Below are positions 16,129 through 49,745 of a stretch of 64,000 bases of DNA, piece by piece. This DNA is from Oscillospiraceae bacterium (GTDB lineage: Bacteria; Bacillota; Clostridia; Oscillospirales; Oscillospiraceae). The stretch is from assembly GCA_017412765.1 (NCBI GenBank), contig JAFPWN010000047.1, positions 62,001 to 126,000 of the forward strand, read 5' to 3'. Under the pieces are notes generated by a model, which saw only the letters and a list, made by a program, of their open reading frames with translations, had not been told where the DNA came from and made no database searches. Positions within the stretch are counted from its first letter, which is position 1, and every line of letters begins with the position of its first letter. The position numbers were made by a program, and so were the translations under genes.

Positions 16129-17658
16129 ATGAAGATGATCGTTCACAACAGACTGGAATTTAACTGTGAACTGAATGAATACCGCGAGATAAGCGCGGCG
16201 TTTGCGCGCGACGCGGTGGACTGGAGCTTCACGGTAGGCGAGAGAGTTTTTGACGATGAGAAGCGCAGCCTTTCTTTCAACACGTGGGAAGATGGCGACA
16301 TAATCTCGGACGGCAGCCTTGTTAAGCTCACCCTTATGTTCCCACGGGTCATTTTCAGCTATACCGCCTGGCCTGACGGACAGCCGGAGCCGGAGAGCGC
16401 GTCGCAGGTGTGGTGCGCCGGTCAGAACGTGACTGAGCTTACGCCTGTCATGCGCAATTCCGTGCGCGACAGAGCGTATATCGAGTACTGCAAGCGCTTC
16501 CTCACCGGCGACACCAGATCGGGCGAGGGCTATGCGCACAAGGCTATTATAATGGATAACGAGGAGCGCACGGCGGCAAGCTGGGGCGAAAACCGCTTCG
16601 GAGAGTGCGAGGTCTATTACTGGGACAGCCTGAAATCGCTCGGCTGCGGAGATTTTCACACCGTTGCGGCAAGAAGCGACGGCAGAACGGTCGCCACAGG
16701 CAGCAACGCGAACGGACAGTGCGACGTGGAGGCGTTCAGAAACGCTGATACCATCTCCTGCGGACGCTACCATACGGCGGCGCTCAAGAAGATCGGCGCG
16801 GTGCTCCTTGCGTCTACGGACGAGCGCTTTACTCAGTGCGCTACCTGGCGCGGCATAGTAGCTTTGCGCAGCGTCGGTGATACGATCATCGGGATCAAGC
16901 GCGACGGCAACGTGCTTATCGACGGCGATCAGATGTGTCCCTGCACGCGCGATGACATCAAGGCAATGTTCCCGGATATGAAGCTTACGTTCCCCGCGGG
17001 GTTCAAGTCGCTTGCGACGAAGATCAGCGCAGAGGATAAGCGCAAGGAGCGCGCTCTCGAGAACGCGGGGGTAAAAAAGCGCAGAAAAGCTCCCGCGAGC
17101 GCCGTGGAGCTTGAGGAAAACGGCCGTATATCTGACAAAAATAAAAAGCCGCGTCCCGTAAAGCTTTCGGAACCGGCATATACCTTCACTTTCAGCTACC
17201 GCGAGGAGCTTGAAAAGCTTGAGAGCGAATTCTGCGGCGAGGAGCTTGTCCTGCCGTATTTCTGCTACGACGCGGCGAAGTATCTCGACAAGAACGGCGT
17301 GCCGCCGGTGGGAGATAACTGCAAGCGCGTGGACGAGGAGACCGTCCGCAGGCAGATAAAGGAATTTTTCATGGTGTGCAGGCTATGCACGAATAAGAAC
17401 TTTCTTGCAGTGATCGCCGAAAATGCCGCGAAGAGCGCAAACGGCAAGCTCATAAAGAACAGAGCGCAGCGCATAACTACGTTCAGACTCACCCACGGCG
17501 AGGATTTTTACGAGCTTTGCGCGAGAAACGTGGACCCGGAAACGATAGATATCTCCGTAGCGCCGGTCGAGTGCACGCTGAAAAACTGCCGCGGGATCAC
17601 AAACCAGCCGGACAGCAGGGCAGTGCTCGAGGAAAACTGCTCAGTGAAGCTTGACTGA
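16129..17658 (+). CDS. RCC1-like repeat protein of the pilus operon
   Basis: ATG 16129 follows TTGGGAGA and gives 509 residues; the same frame is open slightly further upstream but would overlap the preceding stop. Residues of about 130-290 show RCC1/BLIP-II-like repeats: SWGENRFGECEV, LGCGDFHTVAARSDG, ATGSNANGQCDV, ISCGRYHTAALK. Such repeats usually fold into a beta-propeller that mediates protein contacts. The N-terminal part and the Cys-containing C-terminal half are not recognised. No signal peptide or membrane helix is seen. The gene follows the LRR gene by 14 bp and its stop lies 10 bp before the intact prepilin peptidase, so these are likely one transcript. A function in pilus assembly or regulation is guessed from position. 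Confidence 0.8.
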   Translation: MKMIVHNRLEFNCELNEYREISAAFARDAVDWSFTVGERVFDDEKRSLSFNTWEDGDIISDGSLVKLTLMFPRVIFSYTAWPDGQPEPESASQVWCAGQNVTELTPVMRNSVRDRAYIEYCKRFLTGDTRSGEGYAHKAIIMDNEERTAASWGENRFGECEVYYWDSLKSLGCGDFHTVAARSDGRTVATGSNANGQCDVEAFRNADTISCGRYHTAALKKIGAVLLASTDERFTQCATWRGIVALRSVGDTIIGIKRDGNVLIDGDQMCPCTRDDIKAMFPDMKLTFPAGFKSLATKISAEDKRKERALENAGVKKRRKAPASAVELEENGRISDKNKKPRPVKLSEPAYTFTFSYREELEKLESEFCGEELVLPYFCYDAAKYLDKNGVPPVGDNCKRVDEETVRRQIKEFFMVCRLCTNKNFLAVIAENAAKSANGKLIKNRAQRITTFRLTHGEDFYELCARNVDPETIDISVAPVECTLKNCRGITNQPDSRAVLEENCSVKLD

Positions 17659-17668
17659 GGAGACGGGC

Positions 17669-18463
17669 ATGGATTTCATAACAGTGTATTTTCTTGTCAT
17701 CTCCGCCCTCCTCGGAGCTTGCGCGGGCAGCTTTCTGAACTGCTTTGCGTGGAGAATAGTCCACGGCGAGTCGGTAATGAAGGGCAGATCGCATTGTGAT
17801 GAGTGCGGACACGTGCTCGGAGTGCGTGATCTCATTCCGATAGTAAGCTATCTCGCCTCCGGCGGGAAGTGCAGATACTGCGGCGCCAAGCTCTCAAAAA
17901 GGCACCTCGGGGCGGAGATAGTCTCAGCGCTCGTATTCCTCTCGATAGCGTGGAAATACGGTATCTCACTCGAAACCCTGGAGTTCTGGCTTCTCGGCTC
18001 TGCGCTTCTGGCGTGCTCTTTTGCGGATCTCGAGGCGTATCTCGTGCCAGACAGATTTATCGTCTTTGCGATAATCGTCAGAGCGGTGTTCATCGCCGTC
18101 TCTCCGGAGCCGCTTGAGGCTCTCAAAACCTCTCTGATAGGCGGCTTTTCAGTCGCCGCGGCAGTTCTGCTCGTAGTTATCGTGATGGAAAAGGTGCTCA
18201 AAAAAGACGCTATGGGCGGCGGTGATATTAAGCTCATATTCGTGATCGGACTTTACCTCGGATGGGAGAGAAATCTGCTATGCCTGATGATGTCGGCGCT
18301 TTTCGGCGTTGTCGCGGGTATGATATCGCTCAAGAAAAAGAACGATGAGGAGGCTGAGGCGTTCCCGTGGGGTCCGTCTATCGCCTGCGCCGCGTGGGTC
18401 ACGGCGCTGTTCGGCTCGGAGATCATAAGCTGGTATCTGCAATTTTTCACCACAGTGCGCTGA
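17669..18463 (+). CDS. pilD: Prepilin peptidase / N-methyltransferase (intact)
   Basis: A 264-residue polytopic membrane aspartic protease that removes prepilin leaders and methylates the new N-terminus. It shows GSFLNCFAWRI at the N-terminus, two CxxC pairs (Cys43/46 and Cys68/71), first catalytic Asp120 in ADLEAYLVP, and second catalytic Asp186 in GGGDIKL. All are as expected, unlike the paralogue at 253. The likely start is ATG 17669 behind GAGGAGA. It is the last gene of the pilus cluster and is followed by a hairpin terminator. It is the best candidate to process the giant prepilin at its KG/FTVIEL site. Confidence 0.94.
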   Translation: MDFITVYFLVISALLGACAGSFLNCFAWRIVHGESVMKGRSHCDECGHVLGVRDLIPIVSYLASGGKCRYCGAKLSKRHLGAEIVSALVFLSIAWKYGISLETLEFWLLGSALLACSFADLEAYLVPDRFIVFAIIVRAVFIAVSPEPLEALKTSLIGGFSVAAAVLLVVIVMEKVLKKDAMGGGDIKLIFVIGLYLGWERNLLCLMMSALFGVVAGMISLKKKNDEEAEAFPWGPSIACAAWVTALFGSEIISWYLQFFTTVR

Positions 18464-18480
18464 CTTAATCTAAAAATATA

Positions 18481-18531
18481 GAGACCGCTTTTACTCTCTC
18501 GGCATCCGTAGAGGAAAGCGGCCTCTTTTTT
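18481..18531. terminator. Terminator ending the pilus operon
   Basis: GAGACCGCTTT (18481) pairs with AAAGCGGCCTC (18515) with one mismatch and is followed by a run of T. It lies between the end of the intact prepilin peptidase and the convergent Nudix gene, whose stop codon sits at the end of the T tract. Confidence 0.75.
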
Positions 18532-19006
18532 ATTTTGCTGACTTTATGATCTCGCCGTTCAGCGAGGCGAAGGTGAGGGCGTCACCCTCATAGCAGAGCT
18601 TCATCGAAAAGAACGGAATGTCGGTATCCAGAAGGTCGAGAAAGAGCTTATCGCCCTCCCACTGCGGAAGAGATCTGAATTTCTCCTTTGAGATCCACTC
18701 AAGCGTGCCCTCGCTGCACTCTCCGACCGCGCCCTCAAAGCCGTCGGCGGTGAAGAGGTGCATATATTCGCCCTCCCAGATATCGGACACGAACGTGACT
18801 ATCCCGCGGTAGCGCCAGCGTGTCAGCGTGAGCCCGGATTCCTCTTTGACCTCGCGCAGCAGGCACTCCTCGGGACTCTCGTTTTCCTCGAATTTTCCGC
18901 CGAGACCTATCCACTTGTCGCGGTTGAGGTCGTTCTCCTTCTTTACGCGGTGCATAAGCAGCCATTCATCGCCGCGCTCGATGTAACAAAGAGTTGTGTT
19001 TTTCAT
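18530..19006 (-). CDS. Nudix hydrolase, MutT/8-oxo-dGTPase type
   Basis: A 158-residue Nudix protein. The Nudix box GGKFEENESPEECLLREVKE followed by ESGL fits G-x5-E-x7-REUxEExGU exactly, so Mg-dependent hydrolysis of a nucleoside diphosphate derivative is expected. Substrate cannot be read from sequence; resemblance to small MutT proteins of Bacillota, with an opening like NTTLCYIERGDEWLLMHR, suggests 8-oxo-dGTP or a similar damaged nucleotide. Its ATG overlaps the stop of the upstream transporter gene (ATGA at 19006-19003), showing translational coupling with the chromate-type transporter pair. Confidence 0.9.
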   Translation of the reverse strand: MKNTTLCYIERGDEWLLMHRVKKENDLNRDKWIGLGGKFEENESPEECLLREVKEESGLTLTRWRYRGIVTFVSDIWEGEYMHLFTADGFEGAVGECSEGTLEWISKEKFRSLPQWEGDKLFLDLLDTDIPFFSMKLCYEGDALTFASLNGEIIKSAK

Positions 19007-19572
19007 CCTGCAAACCCGAAAACAATGCCGACAACGGCAGAAAACGCGATAAATACGATGGGGTGGAGATCCTTGACCTTCGGCACCCAGCGCGTGCAGA
19101 CGAGAAGCAGCGCGGCAAGAAGCAGCGCGCGCCAGTCAAAAAGCGTGAAAAACGACGAGGCGTCGCCGATGAAAACCACCTGCGCAACGCTGAGTCCGGC
19201 CGCTGCAATGAGGGCGGTAGAGGCGGGGCGCAGACCGTAGAACGCGCCCTTGACGTATTTGTTCTCACCGAACGCGGTCAGAAATTTTGCGATTATAAGA
19301 ATAATGATTATGCTCGGAGTGATCAGCCCGAGCGTTGCGATCACGGAGCCGGGAACGCCGGCGGTCAGAAATCCGACGTATGTCGCGGTGTTTACTCCGA
19401 TAGGGCCGGGTGTGGATTCCGAAACCGCGATCATATCGGTGAGCTGCTGCGCCGTGAACCAGCCGGTGCGGTCTGCGAGATCGTAGAGGAAGGGGAGAGT
19501 CGCCAGACCTCCGCCTACGGCGAAGAGCCCGGTCTTGAAAAACTCCCAGAAAAGCTGAAGGAGAAGCATCAT
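19003..19572 (-). CDS. Chromate-type (CHR) transporter, second half-protein
   Basis: A 189-residue membrane protein of the short-chain CHR family. It begins with the family hallmark FKTGLFAVGGGLATLPFL and contains STPGPIGVNTATYVG. In these systems two half-size proteins work together; the other half is directly upstream. ATG 19572 lies 8 bp after GGAGGCG and overlaps the upstream stop (ATGATG with internal TGA); the adjacent ATG at 19569 is an alternative. The frame stays open further upstream, but that region is the other gene. The family is named for chromate efflux, but in anaerobes the true anion is often unknown. Confidence 0.9.
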   Translation of the reverse strand: MMLLLQLFWEFFKTGLFAVGGGLATLPFLYDLADRTGWFTAQQLTDMIAVSESTPGPIGVNTATYVGFLTAGVPGSVIATLGLITPSIIIILIIAKFLTAFGENKYVKGAFYGLRPASTALIAAAGLSVAQVVFIGDASSFFTLFDWRALLLAALLLVCTRWVPKVKDLHPIVFIAFSAVVGIVFGFAG

Positions 19573-37101: not shown

Positions 37102-38142
37102 ATGCAGGAAGAAAAAAACGGGAGAAAAAAGCGGATACTTACGCTTCTCGTAACTCTCGCAATCAATATCGTGATCGTCGCCGTAATTGCAGTCCTAGAA
37201 TTCGGGGACGACGTTAAAAACGCTGAGCGCATCGCGCTCTCGCAGCTCTCGCTGTGGTTTATCGCCGCCGGAGTTTTGCTCTTCGGAGTTGCTGTGCTGA
37301 CAGACTACCTCAAATATTCGCGCATGATCGAGCTGAGCGAGGGCAAAAGGCTGCCGGACGCCGCGCTCAGATGCGGTATCCTCGGCAAGTACTACGATAA
37401 CATCACCCCGTTCGGCGCGGGAGGACAGCCTTTCCAGATTATGTTCCTCAAAAAGCGCGGACTCTCGACCGGCTCCGCGAGCGCGATACCGATCGCGGCA
37501 TTCCTCTCGCAGCAGATCGCGTTCGGACTTGTCGCCATCGTCGTTTTTGCCGCCAACCGCGACGTTATCGCAGACGCTCCGGTGGTGCGCGTAAGCGCGT
37601 ACTTCGGACTTGTGATGTACATGATCCTGCCGGTTTTCATTCTGCTGTTCGCCGTTTTTCCGAAGCCCTTTGAGAAGCTTATGGTTTGCCTTACCCATCT
37701 TCTCGGAAAACTCAAACTTTTTAAGGACCCGGAGGGTGCGAAAAAGAAGGTCTACGACACGCTCGACGAGTACGTCAGCAGCATAAGAACGATAATCAAG
37801 GATCCGAAAACGGTCATAGAGCTGATGCTCTACTCAGTTTTATATCAGCTCGTTATTATGAGCATACCGTTTTGTATGCTCCGCGGCTTCGGCGGCGAAT
37901 CGAGCTGGTGGACGGCGTTCTCGCTCACGGTCTATATCTATGCCGCTATAACTATCATCCCGACGCCGGGCAACTCCGGCGCTGCGGAGGGCTCGTTTTA
38001 CGCGGTTTTCTCATCGCTCGAGGGCGGATTTCTCTTCTGGGCTATGATACTGTGGCGCGTGCTCGTCTATTACTCGTGGCTCGTGCTTGGAGTCATAGTC
38101 ATCGCTACAAGCGCAGGAACCGACAACGAAATAAAAAAATGA
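37102..38142 (+). CDS. Lysylphosphatidylglycerol synthetase/UPF0104-type membrane protein
   Basis: A 346-residue polytopic protein of the LPG_synthase_TM (flippase) family, without the soluble aminoacyl-transfer domain of MprF. Family marks are GKYYDNITPFGAGGQPFQIMFL and TIIPTPGNSGAAEGSFYAVF. Stand-alone members are thought to move or modify lipids, but the substrate is not known. The TGA stop lies inside the left copy of the hairpin that flanks repeat copy B, so the element inserted just after this gene without breaking it. Confidence 0.88.
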   Translation: MQEEKNGRKKRILTLLVTLAINIVIVAVIAVLEFGDDVKNAERIALSQLSLWFIAAGVLLFGVAVLTDYLKYSRMIELSEGKRLPDAALRCGILGKYYDNITPFGAGGQPFQIMFLKKRGLSTGSASAIPIAAFLSQQIAFGLVAIVVFAANRDVIADAPVVRVSAYFGLVMYMILPVFILLFAVFPKPFEKLMVCLTHLLGKLKLFKDPEGAKKKVYDTLDEYVSSIRTIIKDPKTVIELMLYSVLYQLVIMSIPFCMLRGFGGESSWWTAFSLTVYIYAAITIIPTPGNSGAAEGSFYAVFSSLEGGFLFWAMILWRVLVYYSWLVLGVIVIATSAGTDNEIKK

Positions 38143-38348
38143 ACGGCTCGTCCGTTCATTTCAATGCGTCGGCAAAGCCTCCGCATCGAACATATTTTGC
38201 ACTCTCGGAGCGCAAAATATGACGCCTGCGGGCCTGTGTGCGACGTGAAGGGGCCTCTCGGCCGGCCCCTTCACAGAACCCCGCCTCCTTTGTCCAACGC
38301 TTTTTCGTTTTGTCTGCAGTCTGAAATGAACGGCTCGTCCGTTCATTT
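38137..38348 (+). mobile_element. Copy B of the dispersed element with duplicated stem-loop
   Basis: Core 38162-38323 (162 bp) starts CAATGCGTCG and ends CTGCAGTCTG. The flanking 25-bp hairpin (10-bp stem AAATGAACGG / CCGTTCATTT, loop CTCGT) is repeated exactly at 38137-38161 and 38324-38348. The hairpin sequence is unrelated to those at copies A and C. The right copy has the T run of a terminator. Internal hairpins are as in copy A, with one stem change (GCACTC against GAGCGC). Confidence 0.85.
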
Positions 38349-38373
38349 TTACTATATGGAGGGGAGTGAAACG

Positions 38374-39219
38374 ATGCGCGATTCCGCAGGCTCTATCGGC
38401 AGAGTTTACGCCGAGATGGTAGTAAGAAAAGACGGCTTCGTTATGAAAAGCCACCACTGTCACCCGTATTTTGAGCTGTTTACTATCGAGACAGGCGGCT
38501 GCCGTTTTCTCATAGAGGACGAGATGTTCGACATTCGTCCGGGCGACTTTATCCTTATCCCGCCGAACGTCCTGCACTACACACGCTATCTCTTCGGAGA
38601 GAGCAAGAGGTGCAGCATATTCTTCCGAGCGGAGGATATTGACGAGGCTACCGCGGCGGAGATGCCCGGCGGAGCGGACTTTTTTTCCGAGCCGAGGATG
38701 TTTCAGGCGCCGGAGAGCGGAAGGGGCGATTTCTCGGCGCTGCTCGCAAGGATGTTCCGTGAAAACCGCATAGGCGACGCTCTCAGCGGCAAAATACTGC
38801 GCGCGATGCTCCAGGAGCTGCTGCTTCTCGGCGCGAGAGAGTGCGAGTTCATGAGCGAGGTGCCGGAGAATATCCACACCACCGACAAGCGCATAGTCAG
38901 CGCGGCGAAGTTCATAAGCCGACACTTTGCCGAGGAGATCACCACCGAGGACGTAGCGAAAGCCGTGGGATTCAGCCCGAATTACCTCAGCCGCAAGTTC
39001 AAGGAGGCGTGCGGACTCGGAGTACACGGCTATATCTCGTTTATCCGGCTGCGCCACGCGGCGATGGAGCTTATCGGAACCGACGACACCGTGACCGACA
39101 TCGCTCTGCGATGCGGCTTTTCGGACTCAAACTATTTCAAGGACGCATTCAAGCTCGCTTACGGCGTCACTCCGCGCGAATATCGCAAGGAGAGTGTTGA
39201 AAAATCCGTACTTTTATAA
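38374..39219 (+). CDS. AraC-family transcriptional regulator with cupin sensor
   Basis: A 281-residue regulator. The N-terminal AraC-type cupin has HHCHPYFELFTIETG and GDFILIPPNVLHYT; the C-terminal domain has two helix-turn-helix units (ITTEDVAKAVGFSPNYLSRKFK; VTDIALRCGFSDSNYFKDAFK, then GVTPREYRK). ATG 38374, 7 bp after GGAGGGGAG, is preferred over longer readings that would run into the repeat element. It lies before a MATE exporter on the same strand, which it may control; the ligand is not visible. Confidence 0.9.
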   Translation: MRDSAGSIGRVYAEMVVRKDGFVMKSHHCHPYFELFTIETGGCRFLIEDEMFDIRPGDFILIPPNVLHYTRYLFGESKRCSIFFRAEDIDEATAAEMPGGADFFSEPRMFQAPESGRGDFSALLARMFRENRIGDALSGKILRAMLQELLLLGARECEFMSEVPENIHTTDKRIVSAAKFISRHFAEEITTEDVAKAVGFSPNYLSRKFKEACGLGVHGYISFIRLRHAAMELIGTDDTVTDIALRCGFSDSNYFKDAFKLAYGVTPREYRKESVEKSVLL

Positions 39220-39296
39220 AATATAGGCTAAAAAACAGTAGAAATTAAGGAATAATTGGTGTATTCTCAGCTCAGAAAGAAAAGAGGGCTGTGAAT

Positions 39297-40678: not shown

Positions 40679-40712
40679 CCTCCTGCCGAATTACGGCAGG
40701 AGGCAATTTTTT
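40679..40712. terminator. Terminator between the MATE and isomerase genes
   Basis: CCTCCTGCCG (40679) pairs with CGGCAGGAGG (40694), loop AATTA, followed by CAATTTTTTA. It is shared by the two convergent genes. Confidence 0.85.
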
Positions 40713-42189
40713 ATGCCCAGGGGTTCTCGGTGGGATAGGGGAGGGATTTCGGCTGATTCCAGGCGATGTCCTTAACGCCGAGGAGCTTCATTACCTCGAA
40801 GAGAGCCTTGCCGAAGTGGCCGAACGCTACGGCGCCGTGGTGCGGATAGCGCTTCTCGATGAGAACGTGGCGGTAAAATCTTCCCATCTCCTTGATGGCG
40901 AAAACGCCGATGCCGCCGAAGCTGGTAGTGCGGACGGGGAGCACCTCGCCTTCCGCGATGTAGGAGCGGACGACGCCCTCGGAATCGCACTGGAGGCGGT
41001 AGAAGGTGATCTCGCCGGGAGCGATGTCGCCCTCGAGAGTGCCGCGGGTGAAGTCGGGATCGGATCCCTCCGGCTCGAGAAGTCTGTGCTGAATGAGCTG
41101 ATACTTGACCGCTCTGTCGGAGCACATCTTGCAGGAGGGGGTGTTTCCGCAGTGGAAGCCCATGAAGGTGTCGGTGAGGGTGTAATCGTACTTGCCCTTG
41201 ATCTCACTCTCCCACATAGAGGCGGGAACGGAGTTGTTTATGTCGAGGATCGTAACAGCGTCGCCGGATATGCAGGAGCCTATGTACTCACTGAGCGCGC
41301 CGTAGATATCGACCTCGCAGGCTACGGGAATGCCGCGGGAGGCGAGGCGGGAGTTCACAAAGCACGGCTCGAAGCCGAACTCCTTGGGGAAAGCGGGCCA
41401 GCACTTGTCGGCAAAGGCGACGTACTTGCGCGCGCCCTTGTGCTTCTCTGCCCAGTCGAGGAGCGTAAGCTCAAACTGCGCCATTCTCGGGAGCATCTCG
41501 GGATAGCGGTTGCCGCTCATACCGAGCTCCTTCGCCATATCGTCGCAGACGGCGGGGATGCGCGGATCGTCCTTGTGCTCGCGGTAGCTTACGAGAAGGT
41601 CAAGCTCGGAGTTCTCCTCAATCTCAACGCCGAGCTCATAAAGACCCTTGATGGGCGCGTTGCAGGCGAAGAAGTCCTGCGGGCGCGGGCCGAAGGTGAT
41701 GATCTTGAGGTTCTTGACGCCGATGACCGCTCTTGCGATGGGAACGAATTCCGCGATCATCTTTGCGATGTCCTCGGCGGTGCCGACGGGGTACTCGGGA
41801 ATGTAGCCCTTCAGGTGGCGCATACCGAGATTGTAGGAGCAGTTGAGCATACCGCAGTATGCGTCGCCGCGGCCGTTGATGAGGTCGCCGTCACCCTCGG
41901 CAGCGGCAACGAACATAACGGGGCCGTCGAAGTACTTGGCGATGAGGGTTTCGGGAGTTTCGGGGCCGAAGTTGCCGAGGAAAACGACAAGGGCGTTGCA
42001 CTCAGCCTTCTTTACGTCCTCGACGGCGCGGAGCATATCGCACTCGTTCTCAACGGTCACGGGGCAGTCGTAGATCTCGCCCTTGACAGCCTTGACGATA
42101 TTCTCGCGGCGGGCTTCGGAGAGAGTGATGGGGAAGCAGTCGCGGCTTACAGCCACGATTCCGAGCTTTACTACGGGTATGTTGTTCAT
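40711..42189 (-). CDS. L-fucose/L-arabinose isomerase-family protein
   Basis: A 492-residue protein of the FucI/AraA superfamily, ketol isomerases using Mn2+. It has an N-terminal alpha/beta part (VVFLGNFGPETPETLIAKYF) and the C-terminal half with CFVNSRLASRGIPVACEVDIYGAL and TFMGFHCGNTPSC. It is the last gene of an operon with a xylulokinase-type kinase and near a GH43 enzyme, and no xylA or araA is seen in the window. A role as the pentose isomerase (D-xylose, L-arabinose or D-arabinose) is therefore likely but not proven. Its ATG overlaps the DUF4867 stop (ATGA). Confidence 0.85.
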   Translation of the reverse strand: MNNIPVVKLGIVAVSRDCFPITLSEARRENIVKAVKGEIYDCPVTVENECDMLRAVEDVKKAECNALVVFLGNFGPETPETLIAKYFDGPVMFVAAAEGDGDLINGRGDAYCGMLNCSYNLGMRHLKGYIPEYPVGTAEDIAKMIAEFVPIARAVIGVKNLKIITFGPRPQDFFACNAPIKGLYELGVEIEENSELDLLVSYREHKDDPRIPAVCDDMAKELGMSGNRYPEMLPRMAQFELTLLDWAEKHKGARKYVAFADKCWPAFPKEFGFEPCFVNSRLASRGIPVACEVDIYGALSEYIGSCISGDAVTILDINNSVPASMWESEIKGKYDYTLTDTFMGFHCGNTPSCKMCSDRAVKYQLIQHRLLEPEGSDPDFTRGTLEGDIAPGEITFYRLQCDSEGVVRSYIAEGEVLPVRTTSFGGIGVFAIKEMGRFYRHVLIEKRYPHHGAVAFGHFGKALFEVMKLLGVKDIAWNQPKSLPYPTENPWA

Positions 42190-42827
42190 TTGAGATCCTC
42201 CTCAATGTTAATGTTTTTGCCGTAAAGTCCTACGAATGCTCCGCGTTCCGCTTCCTTGCTCTCGGCGTGGGCAAGAAGCCACTTGTTGCGCGCCCAGAGA
42301 AGCTTATCCTCGGAGTTTTTGACCGCTATCTCAGGCTTGTAGAGGTTCGTGCCGTCGGGAAGCGCGACGGCTACCCGGAAATAACCGCTCTTTTTCGCGT
42401 TGCAGGGCGCGTAGTGCAGAGTGGTGGCATAGACCTCTACAACCGCTCCTGCCGGAACCTTGAACGCCTTGACCTTGTCGGTATTGAGCTGCCAGCCCTC
42501 GCCGATGTCGTCCGTTTTCGCAAGCAGAAGGATGAAATCCTCAGTGCCGATGTTTATCTCGCTGTCGCGGTGGTATTCAAGACAGTTGAGCTTGGTGTTT
42601 CTGCCCCAGCACATTCCGAGCTGGATCGGCATATCGCCGTAGGCGCGGGTCTGAAGCTCGTCGAAGATCCTGCACTTCTCGAGGCTTGCTATGCCGGCCT
42701 CGTACTTCGTGCCGGAGGAGGGAAGAACGATCTTATCCATCTCGGCGCAGAGCTCTTTCGTGTCATAGCCCTCGAGCACCTTGCCGTAGGGCTTGAATTC
42801 GGGGTCGTAAATTGAGTAAAAGTACAT
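42186..42827 (-). CDS. DUF4867 family protein (cupin-like)
   Basis: A 213-residue protein of the DUF4867 family, which is usually found beside FucI-like isomerases. The core CLEYHRDSEINIGTEDFILLL and FKVPAGAVVEVYATTLHYAPC has the look of a cupin or ureidoglycolate-lyase-like beta barrel with His and Glu as possible metal ligands. It may act as a mutarotase, lyase or isomerase helper; its function is unknown. It is translationally coupled to the isomerase (4-bp ATGA overlap) and starts 12 bp after the upstream membrane gene. Confidence 0.85.
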   Translation of the reverse strand: MYFYSIYDPEFKPYGKVLEGYDTKELCAEMDKIVLPSSGTKYEAGIASLEKCRIFDELQTRAYGDMPIQLGMCWGRNTKLNCLEYHRDSEINIGTEDFILLLAKTDDIGEGWQLNTDKVKAFKVPAGAVVEVYATTLHYAPCNAKKSGYFRVAVALPDGTNLYKPEIAVKNSEDKLLWARNKWLLAHAESKEAERGAFVGLYGKNINIEEDLK

Positions 42828-43960: not shown

Positions 43961-45433
43961 TTATTTAATATCTTTGTAAAGACCCTTTACGGCGGGGTAG
44001 ATCATGCTGAATTTTCGGTACTGGGCCTCGTATTTCGCGGTAAGCTCATCGTCCGGCGCTTCGGTATAGGTCACGCTGACGAGCTTTTCCGCCGCCTCGC
44101 GGACGGAAGAGAACTCTCCGCAGCCGACGAGAGCGAGCATGGCGCCGCCCATACCGGGACCCTGCTCGGTCTTTGGAATATCGAGCGGGATACCGAGCAC
44201 GTTCGCCATGATTTTGCGCCAGACGGGACTTTTTGCGCCGCCGCCGCAGATCTTGGAGCGCTTTATGTCAAAGCCGATGCTTTTTGCGACCTCAAAAGAG
44301 TCGCGTATCGCAAAAGCGACGCCCTCGAGCACGGACTGCACCATATCGGAGCGGGAGGTATCAAGGCTCAGACCGACGAAGGTGCCGCGCACGTCCGTGT
44401 CGTTTATCGGGCTGCGCTCACCCATGAGGTAGGGGAGGAAGAACACTCGGTTATCTCCGAGCCTTTCCATCATGCCGGTCTGCTCCGCGGCAAAATCCGA
44501 TGTGCCGAGGATCTCCTCACAGAACCACTTGTTGCAGCTCGCGGCGGAGAGCATACAGCCCATGAGGTGATAGCGCCCGTCGGCGTGGCAGAAGGAGTGG
44601 AGCGCGTTCATCGGATCGACGCCGAACTTGTCGCCGGATATAAAGATAGTGCCGCTTGTGCCGAGGGAGATATTGCACTCTCCGTCTCCGACCGTACCCG
44701 TGCCGACAGCCGCCGCGGCGTTGTCTCCCGCTCCGGCGACGACCTTTACGGAGTCTGAGAGTCCGAGAAGCCGCGCAATCTCGGGCTTCACCGTTCCAAT
44801 CACCTCGTAGCTCTCATAAAGCGCGGGCATAACCGCCTCAGAGATGCCGCAGATGTCGAGCATCTCGCGGCTCCAGCGGCGATGCTGAACGTCAAGCAGG
44901 AGCATACCCGAAGCGTCGGAGCAGTCGCAGGCGTGAACTCCGGTCAGAACGTAGTTTATATAGTCCTTCGGGAGCATGATTTTTGCGATATTTTTGAAAT
45001 TCTCCGGCTCGTTATTGCGCATCCATAGAATCTTCGGCGCGGTGAAGCCGGCAAAGGCGATATTAGCCGTCAGCTCGGAGAGCTTTTCTCTGCCGATCGC
45101 GGTGTTGAGATATTCAGTCTCCCTGTCGGTGCGGCTGTCGTTCCAGAGGATCGCGGGGCGAATTATGCTGTCATTCTCGTCGAGCGCCACAAGCCCGTGC
45201 ATCTGACCGCCGACGCCGATGCCGGCGACCTCGCTGCCGTCAAAGCCCTCGAGAAGCTTTTTGATGCCGCTGAACAGCGCCCTTTTCCAGTCCTCGGGCT
45301 TCTGCTCAGACCAGCCCGGATGCGGGAAAAAGAGAGGATACTCCTCTGTGACGGCGTTCAGTATTTCTCCGTCGGCGCGAACAAGCAGAAGCTTCATTGC
45401 GCTCGTGCCGAGATCGATTCCGATAGTGACCAT
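43961..45433 (-). CDS. xylB: FGGY-family carbohydrate kinase, xylulokinase type
   Basis: A 490-residue sugar kinase. N-terminal domain: GIDLGTSAMKLLLV (phosphate loop) and GVGGQMHGLVALDEND with ILWNDSRTDRE. C-terminal domain: AGAGDNAAAAVGTG, SLGTSGTIF, and KICGGGAKSPVWRKIMANVL. The GQMHG motif is typical of xylulokinase, which phosphorylates D-xylulose for the pentose phosphate pathway. ATG 45433 follows GAGGGCAAT; longer readings lack a ribosome site. It is the first gene of the pentose operon and is divergent from the AraC regulator. Confidence 0.92.
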   Translation of the reverse strand: MVTIGIDLGTSAMKLLLVRADGEILNAVTEEYPLFFPHPGWSEQKPEDWKRALFSGIKKLLEGFDGSEVAGIGVGGQMHGLVALDENDSIIRPAILWNDSRTDRETEYLNTAIGREKLSELTANIAFAGFTAPKILWMRNNEPENFKNIAKIMLPKDYINYVLTGVHACDCSDASGMLLLDVQHRRWSREMLDICGISEAVMPALYESYEVIGTVKPEIARLLGLSDSVKVVAGAGDNAAAAVGTGTVGDGECNISLGTSGTIFISGDKFGVDPMNALHSFCHADGRYHLMGCMLSAASCNKWFCEEILGTSDFAAEQTGMMERLGDNRVFFLPYLMGERSPINDTDVRGTFVGLSLDTSRSDMVQSVLEGVAFAIRDSFEVAKSIGFDIKRSKICGGGAKSPVWRKIMANVLGIPLDIPKTEQGPGMGGAMLALVGCGEFSSVREAAEKLVSVTYTEAPDDELTAKYEAQYRKFSMIYPAVKGLYKDIK

Positions 45434-45486: not shown

Positions 45487-45565
45487 GTATAAATTTGCGG
45501 GAGATATAATGACAATCTTGCGATTTACCGATATATATGATATTATCCATACAGGAGGCGGTATA

Positions 45566-46486
45566 ATGAACGATGAATTTGAAACCGTGAGCTTCAGACT
45601 ATTGCGCCATGTTTCCGTTCTCTGCACGCGCATAATGCTGAGAGCCTACCACGTTCACAACGAAACGGAGCTGCTGCTTGTCGCGTCGGGAGATTGTGAT
45701 ATCAGCCTCAGAAGCAGATTTATACGCGCGAAAGCAGGGGATCTGATACTTATCGGCAGAAACGAGCCGCACGCGATAGCCTCGGAAAACGGGGCTGAAT
45801 TGATCGTAGTGCAGTTTTCACATCATTTTCTCTCGGAGTATTTTCCGGCGCTCAGAACAACAAGCTTTGTGAGCGGCAGGGCGGAGGCGGAGCTTGTGCC
45901 GATGATCCTCAGAGTCGCGGAGGACTATTTTGCCGGAGAGGACAATTTTGAACTTAAAACAGTCGGAGAGATGGCTGAGATCATATATGAGCTGTATAAG
46001 AGCGCGGAGCACACCGTTCTCAGTGAGGAGCGCCACAGAGAGAGAAAAAAGGCGGCGCAGAGGATAAGCTCTGTCGCCGCCTATGCGGAAGAGAATTTTG
46101 ACGGGAAGATCAGCCTCCGCGCACTTGCGGAGCGGGAGGGGATTACCGAAACACATCTGAGCCACTTTATAAGGGAAAACTTCGGCATGACCTTCCAGGA
46201 GTATATCGCAGCGCTGAGATTTCAGAAGGCTCTGCGTCTTATTTCCGACGAACGCCTCGGTATCTACGAGGTAGCCGTTATGAGCGGCTACTCAGACCCG
46301 AAGTATCTCACAAAGGCATTCCGCGATAAGCTCGGCGTAACGCCGGGAGAGTATGCAAGAAGTGCGAAAAAGCAGCAGATCTCCGGATCGGAAACTGTTT
46401 TTGAGCGCCGGTATGACCGAGCGGAGAGCCTGCGGCTCGTTCACTCGATGGTAAATGAAATGAAGTCAGCGGCGTCGGAGCCGTGA
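45566..46486 (+). CDS. AraC-family regulator of the pentose genes
   Basis: A 306-residue regulator from ATG 45566 behind AGGAGGCGG. The N-terminal cupin has AYHVHNETELLLVASGDCD and AGDLILIGRNEPHAI; the C-terminal DNA-binding domain has ISLRALAEREGITETHLSHFIRENFG and IYEVAVMSGYSDPKYLTKAFRDKLG, then VTPGEY. It stands between the kinase operon and the GH43 gene, both on the other strand, and is the natural candidate to bind the direct repeats at 47905-47942. Its 3' end overlaps the convergent GH43 gene by 46 bp. Confidence 0.9.
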   Translation: MNDEFETVSFRLLRHVSVLCTRIMLRAYHVHNETELLLVASGDCDISLRSRFIRAKAGDLILIGRNEPHAIASENGAELIVVQFSHHFLSEYFPALRTTSFVSGRAEAELVPMILRVAEDYFAGEDNFELKTVGEMAEIIYELYKSAEHTVLSEERHRERKKAAQRISSVAAYAEENFDGKISLRALAEREGITETHLSHFIRENFGMTFQEYIAALRFQKALRLISDERLGIYEVAVMSGYSDPKYLTKAFRDKLGVTPGEYARSAKKQQISGSETVFERRYDRAESLRLVHSMVNEMKSAASEP

Positions 46487-47875: not shown

Positions 47876-47942
47876 ATTATAACATTTCTTTTTCGATTTG
47901 TCATTTTTTTCGCGCAGATTATGCATTTTTTCGCGCAGATTA
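47876..47942 (-). promoter_or_regulatory. GH43 promoter with araI-like 17-4-17 direct repeat
   Basis: Minus-strand promoter: ATGACA (47904-47899), spacer 17 bp, TATAAT (47881-47876). Just upstream are two identical 17-bp direct repeats, 47905-47921 and 47926-47942 (each TTTTTTCGCGCAGATTA on the + strand), separated by TGCA, a period of exactly 21 bp. The nearer repeat touches the -35 box. This is the geometry of AraC-family activator sites. Confidence 0.8.
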
Positions 47943-47970
47943 GAATAAACTCGGCAAAGGAGGTGGTAGT

Positions 47971-48249
47971 GTGAGGTGCAGAGTTCAGGATCTCCGGTGC
48001 AAGGAGGTAATAAACGTCTGCGACGGCGCGCGGCTCGGCTACGTCTGCGACGTAATAATCAATACCGCGAACGGTCAGCTTTTAGCTATCGTTGTGCCGG
48101 GACCATGCAGGTTTTTTATCTTCATGCGAGAGGACGATTTTGTCATACCATGGGAGTGCATACGCAAGATCTCGGACGAGATAATACTTATCGAGGTACC
48201 GGGCGAACACCGCAGGGAGCGCCGTCCGCCGCGAAAATGGATGATATAA
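47971..48249 (+). CDS. YlmC/YmxH family PRC-barrel protein
   Basis: A 92-residue protein of the YlmC/YmxH sporulation-associated family with a PRC-barrel fold: RVQDLRCKEVINVCDGARLGYVCDVIINTANGQLLAIVVPGP, then VIPWECIRKISDEIILIEV. GTG 47971 follows AAAGGAGGTGG. The function is not established; genes of the family are expressed during sporulation in bacilli, which suggests a spore-forming ancestry here. A single-gene unit, ending at a terminator shared with the convergent lipoprotein gene. Confidence 0.88.
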   Translation: MRCRVQDLRCKEVINVCDGARLGYVCDVIINTANGQLLAIVVPGPCRFFIFMREDDFVIPWECIRKISDEIILIEVPGEHRRERRPPRKWMI

Positions 48250-48281: not shown

Positions 48282-49745
48282 TTACTGAGTGACTTTAACG
48301 TTTGAAATAATAAAATATGTGCCGTTCTCGGTCTCTGTGAGAGATACAACATATTGTTCTCCGCTCCAGCCGTAATAGGTGAGGCGGACGATACCGGGCT
48401 CATCGCGCACGAGAGTGTCCATAACGTAGTTATTCGCGTTAGTGTCGCCGTGCATATGATAGTAGGCGTCGTACTCCTCAAGATAGGTAAAGGAGTCCAG
48501 GTTGACCTTATTCGTTTCGTCGAGAGTCTTGCCGGTGTACTTTAGAAGCGTTTCGTTCACGTCGGCGGAGGTCACCTTTGTGACGTCGGTGTAGATCTCT
48601 TCGTAGTCCGCCTTGACTCTGAACGCCTCAAGCTCCTCGGGCGAGATAAGCTCACTGCTGCCCGCGCCGTCATAGAAGAGGAAGTACAGATCCACGTCGG
48701 CAGCGTCGCCGTACTCGCTGTTTAGGAAGTGGCGGGATAGGGCGGAGCTGAAGTAGACGTTATTGAACCAGTCGAGCGAGCCGACCTCATACTTCGACGG
48801 TGGTGCAAATTCGGTTTCGACCTCGTATTCGTCGGAATCGGAGAAGTGCCACCATTCGGCGTCGTAGGGGATAAATCCGTGCGCTGTCATCACGTTCTGG
48901 AGCGTCATCGCGTTTGCGACCGCGTCCTCAAAATCGACGTCGCCGAAGTCGCGGTCAGCGAGGGCGGAGAAATCATCGAAGTCTGAGGGCATACGCATCC
49001 ACTCGCCGTCCATACCGACAAGCGTGACGTCTACGGTGTTGCCGCGGGTGTGGGAGCTGTATCCGTTTGTCGGGTCTGCTACGTAATCGGCGTCCGGCCA
49101 GACATTCCAGAGCGTCCACTGAGCGGATGCGGGACGGAAGGCGTCCCAGATCATGATCCGATAGCCGTACTCCTCAAGCTCTGCCTCGACCTCGACGAGC
49201 TTCGCAACCGTACCGTAGCGCAGATATGCGTCGTCAAAATCGTAAATGACCGTTCCGGTGAAGTTGTCCTCGGTCGCGTAGCGAAGATTGATCACCGCGT
49301 TAGGGATATATTCCGCAACGCGCACGAATTCGGCACTGTCGGGCAGGGGAGCATCAGGCTCCGTTTCAGGTTCGGGTTCCGGCTCCGGCTCGGGTTCCGG
49401 CTCCGGCTCGGGAACGTAATCAAGCTCGCGGATTGTGATCGTCACGTTCTCCGCCGGCATCATAAAAGAGCAGTAGTCGTAATCCGCGAGATAGTCGCGG
49501 CTGACGGAGATCTCCGTGTAGAACTCAAACACTCTGCCGTCGATGTGCGGGAGCTTGAAGAACACGGTTTCCGCCGGCTGATATTCATCTCGCTCCGGCA
49601 AAACGACGTTTTCGAGGTCGCCGCTAAAGCTTACCGTATAAGCCTCGGGCTCGGCGATCTCCGGCTCCGGCTGAACTGCGGGAGCGGAGGAGCAGGCTGT
49701 CAGAAGCGCCGCAAGAGCCAGAATCGCGGGTAATAATCTTTTCAA
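48282..49745 (-). CDS. VanX-like D-Ala-D-Ala dipeptidase lipoprotein
   Basis: A 487-residue lipoprotein with lipobox LTACSS (Cys18), a beta-rich N-domain, a (PE)n spacer near 112-128, then a peptidase M15D (VanX/DdpX) domain. Zinc ligands and catalytic motifs are visible: SSHTRGNTVDVTLV (His, Asp) and EWWHFS (Glu, His). The Arg of IWDAFRPASAQ matches the substrate Arg of VanX. A C-terminal 150-residue domain is unknown. Because it is exported, it would trim D-Ala-D-Ala peptides outside the cell, in wall turnover rather than the cytosolic vancomycin pathway. The start is TTG 49745 after AAAGGAGATG. Confidence 0.85.
   Translation of the reverse strand: MKRLLPAILALAALLTACSSAPAVQPEPEIAEPEAYTVSFSGDLENVVLPERDEYQPAETVFFKLPHIDGRVFEFYTEISVSRDYLADYDYCSFMMPAENVTITIRELDYVPEPEPEPEPEPEPEPETEPDAPLPDSAEFVRVAEYIPNAVINLRYATEDNFTGTVIYDFDDAYLRYGTVAKLVEVEAELEEYGYRIMIWDAFRPASAQWTLWNVWPDADYVADPTNGYSSHTRGNTVDVTLVGMDGEWMRMPSDFDDFSALADRDFGDVDFEDAVANAMTLQNVMTAHGFIPYDAEWWHFSDSDEYEVETEFAPPSKYEVGSLDWFNNVYFSSALSRHFLNSEYGDAADVDLYFLFYDGAGSSELISPEELEAFRVKADYEEIYTDVTKVTSADVNETLLKYTGKTLDETNKVNLDSFTYLEEYDAYYHMHGDTNANNYVMDTLVRDEPGIVRLTYYGWSGEQYVVSLTETENGTYFIISNVKVTQ

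Follow-up and report, generated by a model that had tools for sequence, protein, structure and literature searches.

A conserved tandem 17-bp repeat abutting the promoter of a GH43 gene in Oscillospiraceae, and a different predicted operator for the neighbouring AraC-type regulator

The GH43 locus and the tandem 17-mers

The window (the whole stretch of 64,000 nucleotides that was analysed) belongs to an Oscillospiraceae-type genome of 2.28 Mb in 74 contigs. Its closest named relatives, found via the AraC protein encoded at 45566, were assembled from metagenomes of roe deer rumen and goat reticulum. The features of the locus are listed in Table 1. For the GH43 glycosidase the nearest solved relative is the arabinofuranosidase/xylosidase TerARA, which derives from a termite metagenome. 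The GH43 gene is convergent with araC(45566) and overlaps it, araC(45566) is divergent from xylB, and ylmC is divergent from GH43. On the 3' side of xylB there are genes for two small proteins without Pfam match, followed by two adjacent genes (40711-42827) coding for a DUF4867 protein and a protein with an L-fucose isomerase C-terminal domain. Orthologues of araC(45566), 82-83% identical, were found among the congeners only in two sister rumen species (G026 and G028), both of which have the same gene order.

The original prediction had taken AraC(45566) for the sole regulator of the block. This proved incorrect, since a second AraC-type gene (38374) lies in the same block and is conserved in both sisters. 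It is followed by a gene for a MATE-family-like transporter, also conserved in G026 and G028. Across the three species the intergenic segment before the transporter gene (39219-39296, GGCTnAAAAACAGTAGAAATTAAGGAA) has changed unusually little, and no tandem was found in it. Upstream of the second araC the hairpin AAATGAACGGCTCGTCCGTTCATTT occurs twice (38136-38161 and 38324-38349), flanking a segment of ~160 bp that is rich in inverted repeats; this segment is missing in G026, and G028 has unrelated-looking sequence there.

Table 1. Positions of genes, promoter elements and repeats at the GH43 locus (window numbering)
Feature	Position	Strand	Remarks
Second AraC-type regulator	38374..39219	+	same conserved block
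Xylulokinase xylB	43961..45433	-	TIGR01312 6.6e-169
ATGACAATCTTGCGATTT, recurring word in the araC-xylB intergenic region, predicted operator of the AraC(45566) subfamily	45509..45526	+	invariant in three species; 29.6 bits, top match in the window
AraC-type regulator, cupin-like sensor domain and double HTH	45566..46486	+	PF02311, PF12833
GH43 glycosidase, 470 aa	46441..47853	-	PF04616 4e-24; 9no3 E 9e-121
GH43 promoter, -10 hexamer TATAAT, extended TGn	47876..47881	-	invariant across three species
GH43 promoter, -35 hexamer ATGACA	47899..47904	-	GTGACA in G026 and G028
Proximal half-site TAATCTGCGCGAAAAAA, abuts the -35 hexamer	47905..47921	-	exact repeat; core without change in G026 and G028
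Distal half-site TAATCTGCGCGAAAAAA	47926..47942	-	exact repeat; AATCTGCGCRAAAAA core preserved in G026 and G028
ylmC/ymxH, sporulation family	47971..48249	+	TIGR02888 5.1e-20

Between GH43 and ylmC the 17-mer TTTTTTCGCGCAGATTA occurs in two exact copies, with a distance of 21 bp from start to start and a gap of 4 bp. Read on the minus (GH43) strand the arrangement is TAATCTGCGCGAAAAAA-TGCA-TAATCTGCGCGAAAAAA, followed directly by ATGACA. The core promoter, ATGACA-17-TATAAT, matches at 11/12 positions and carries TG before the -10 hexamer. The original description of two identical direct repeats, the nearer one touching the -35 box of a good promoter, was confirmed. In the window there are only two exact direct repeats of at least 13 bp within 60 bp; one is the 17-mer pair, the other (at 49372) is a low-complexity repeat in coding sequence. 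A run of at least 17 appeared in 0/20 Markov copies of the window and, when 20,000 such copies were made of the intergenic region, in one, indicating that the 17-mer pair is not due to chance.

Conservation and distribution of the repeat

Conservation of the repeat in relatives, implied by the original prediction, was borne out: both copies are present in G026 and G028. In the three-species alignment both AATCTGCGCRAAAAA cores, the 21-bp period, the contact with the -35 hexamer and the -10 hexamer are preserved, and the substitutions fall on the outer base of a copy, the 4-bp gap, the spacer between the -10 and -35 hexamers and the leader. Relative to the present sequence, 0/30 core bases were changed in G028 and 1/30 in G026. 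Comparison with G028 showed changes at 0/30 core positions versus 13/48 other non-signal intergenic positions (Fisher p 0.001); for GH43, araC, ylmC and xylB the divergence at four-fold sites is 31-49%. Judged by these substitution counts, in a sample of three genomes of which two are closely related to each other, the tandem site is evidently under selection in the relatives.

The site is restricted to genomes that have the araC-GH43 block (3/34 congeners). It was not found in the other 31 congeners, and among 394 genomes sampled from the order the present one was the only positive. No exact copy of the 17-mer occurs elsewhere in this genome; when 2-3 mismatches were allowed, 22 matches, most of them within coding regions, were obtained genome-wide, a number little higher than the 13 of a reversed-pattern control. 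The same 17-mer, which on the original prediction might be expected before other pentose genes, was not found there. Similarly, no such site was detected upstream of other GH43 relatives, including the two paralogues of this genome on contig 2 (47% identity) and contig 61. The latter gene (17598-19007) is 88% identical, and its upstream sequence is unrelated and contains no tandem.

Candidate regulators of the GH43 site

We predict that the 17-mer pair is a genuine tandem operator for an activator that binds direct repeats and is probably of AraC type (probability about 0.6). The half-sites of 17 bp with a period of 21 bp fall within the geometry of tandem AraC-type operators (half-sites of ~15-17 bp, 21-23 bp apart), and the position is also fitting, with nucleotide 47905 adjoining the -35 hexamer.

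The word that recurs beside the genes of the AraC(45566) subfamily is a different one, GACAAnnnTGCGATT. Across four genera it accompanies araC homologues together with divergent xylA, xylA-like or xylB genes. In addition to the site between araC(45566) and xylB, the word is recorded at loci L100, L121, L108, L110, L027, L131, L129, L130 and L133. In G021 a near-identical word stands in the same place before the gene of a 34%-identical AraC protein divergent from an FGGY kinase gene, and in G014 and G024 the word has another araC on one side and a xylose-isomerase-like gene on the other. Among the more distant AraC homologues (32-36%) it was present upstream in 6/9 assessed loci, in four genera including this one. 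At L129 and L130 it forms a tandem of period 22 adjoining the start of a gene for a true xylose isomerase (identity tested by TIGR02630 for L129). Because the word follows the regulator and the xylose genes, GACAAnnnTGCGATT is very likely the operator of the AraC(45566) subfamily, as predicted from this cross-genus comparison. No significant tandem 20-23-bp repeats were found upstream beside the more distant AraC homologues. At a Bacilli locus (L058) a tandem (14/16, period 20) lies downstream of the AraC homologue.

A near-identical word also occurs in G021 (L121) before DUF4867-isomerase genes with no adjoining araC. The pair is thus located away from araC, yet under the same candidate xylose operator, which tentatively suggests a pentose-related function of DUF4867.

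For AraC-type xylose regulators of Firmicutes the binding motif was reported in 2010 as not accurately determined (PMC2873477); the comparison yields a testable xylose regulon word, GACAAnnnTGCGATT, which would apply to a subfamily of AraC-type regulators of uncultured rumen Oscillospiraceae. The GACAAnnnTGCGATT profile gave 23-30 bits on its sites, recovering its own training sites by construction; the weight is carried by the GH43 promoter, in which it did not exceed 3.3 bits (p 0.23).

This mismatch favours a different factor at the GH43 site, and we give about even odds to binding by some other protein of the genome: a further AraC-type regulator, such as that encoded at 38374, or a direct-repeat reader outside the AraC family. 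In total, nine AraC-type DNA-binding domains were counted in the genome, and the 38374 protein, encoded in the same block, has 91-92% identical orthologues in G026 and G028. However, 0/9 of the AraC-type loci have a similar tandem above background within ~1.5 kb, no matching tandem was found upstream of the second araC and the MATE gene, and 54%-level homologues of the 38374 protein are present in five congeners that have no site.

That AraC(45566) itself binds both 17-mers and activates GH43, as originally predicted, would be a special case of the tandem operator and appears doubtful. It is the nearest regulator, and its gene was found together with GH43 and the site in the same 3/34 congeners. 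Co-occurrence cannot name the partner, because the second araC is present in the same three genomes. Some sequence similarity favours AraC(45566): in the conserved araC-xylB block the word AAATTTGCGGGAGATAT at 45491 resembles a half-site (11.3 bits, shuffle p ~0.05) and is the one sequence feature that supports, weakly, a regulator common to GH43 and this block, and the araC-xylB operator of its own lineage has the words AATC and TGCG in common with the GH43 half-site. The similarity of the two motifs was nevertheless not significant either with gaps (p 0.17) or without (p 0.85, i.e. at chance). In addition, the subfamily operator is perfect between araC and xylB and absent from the GH43 promoter, and its period at L129 and L130 is 22 versus 21 at GH43. 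AraC(45566) is thus a candidate by position, and on the motif evidence probably not the partner. More generally, an operator of AraC-like shape need not belong to the AraC gene nearby.

The repeat might also function without a specific protein. Each copy of the 17-mer ends in AAAAAA, one of these runs immediately precedes the -35 hexamer, and the two A-tracts are two helical turns apart, as might suit an UP element or curved DNA in a segment that had undergone tandem duplication. This is improbable: in both copies the conservation of the GC-rich TCTGCGC words is as strict as that of the A-tracts, and since the copies are unlike each other at their edges in G026 and G028, the pair is not a recent duplication.

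On the opposite strand a sporulation-sigma-like promoter recurs among congeners, 14-27 bp upstream of ylmC. In each of the three genomes with the site, the sequence that matches it best, TGCATTTT..GAATAAACT (47922-47952, plus strand; 17 bp before the start codon), overlaps the distal half-site, so the divergent GH43 and ylmC promoters could interfere with each other. That the repeat belongs to ylmC, either as part of its promoter or as its regulatory site, is very improbable, as the promoter match is weak (-0.8 to 0.4 bits in the three genomes versus 9-25 in congeners), the proximal copy, though outside TGCATTTT..GAATAAACT, is equally conserved, and the repeat is absent upstream of ylmC in congeners without the GH43 block.

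Proposed mechanism and comparison with known systems

For the tandem operator we infer a regulator of the AraC family, activation rather than repression, and a plant-sugar inducer. Two subunits of a direct-repeat-binding factor, most likely of AraC type, would sit side by side on the 17-mers, each double-HTH domain contacting a single face of the helix over ~15-17 bp. The promoter-proximal subunit would contact RNA polymerase at the -35 hexamer and thereby activate transcription of GH43. The inducer would probably be a pentose or a xylo/arabino-oligosaccharide.

Two properties of the site do not agree with a simple inducible switch. The near-consensus core promoter with its extended -10 is unlike most activator-dependent promoters and counts against an activator. 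Identical half-sites would not be predicted either, because in the MtlR system equal half-sites lead to constitutive expression (PMC4514859). Equal half-sites together with a strong core promoter make high basal expression of GH43, or another form of gating, possible. An AraC-type switch might even be occupied without inducer and gated otherwise, and the bound protein could then couple the use of plant sugars to repression of ylmC. Such sugar-sporulation coupling by the same protein could occur because the distal half-site overlaps the candidate ylmC promoter; we consider it quite improbable.

In E. coli, araI1 and araI2 are tandem direct repeats beside the -35 box, with the half-site size and the 21-bp spacing seen here. 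The likeness to araI claimed in the original prediction held for spacing, half-site size and position. It did not extend to the half-sites themselves, which are identical at GH43 and a strong and a weak one at araBAD, where AraC favours araI1 over araI2 (PMC4760080), nor to the core promoter, which is near-consensus at GH43. Arabinose-bound E. coli AraC fills the two proximal sites and brings in RNA polymerase (PMC4760080). A further difference from araBAD is that the GH43 site has no known distal looping site. AraC(45566) itself scores far under the NCBIfam AraC cut-off (58 vs 208 bits).

At the PmtlE promoter of Pseudomonas fluorescens, MtlR recognizes AGTGC-N5-AGTAT-N7-AGTGC-N5-AGGAT, two 15-bp blocks 22 bp apart and ending at -36 (PMC4514859). 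As at GH43, the repeat blocks are directly upstream of the -35 and a poly-A tract follows a box (PMC4514859). Unlike the equal GH43 half-sites, the downstream half-site of MtlR is the weaker one, and this weakness is required for inducibility, equal half-sites making the promoter constitutive (PMC4514859). XylS, a double-HTH protein of the AraC/XylS family, binds two 15-bp direct repeats, TGCA-N6-GGTA, at Pm (PMC5481539); the direct-repeat shape is alike, whereas sequence and inducer class differ.

Closer in phylogeny is Caldicellulosiruptor bescii, where tandem sites precede the promoter for 4/4 single-component AraC-type regulators, which were taken as activators (PMC8579813). The likeness lies in AraC-type regulators of a Firmicutes species and in plant-polysaccharide genes whose promoter elements have tandem repeats upstream (PMC8579813). 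The repeats there are described with large spacers, the likeness is by description, and activation was deduced from site position.

With the AraC-type xylose regulators of Firmicutes, such as XylR of L. lactis, AraC(45566) has in common that its gene adjoins xylB and those of its homologues adjoin xylA. The GH43 repeat departs from this setting, since the GACAAnnnTGCGATT motif is not the GH43 repeat. The GH43 site, a clean and short (38-bp) sequence, fits by its geometry an already known kind of site, the tandem AraC-type operator.
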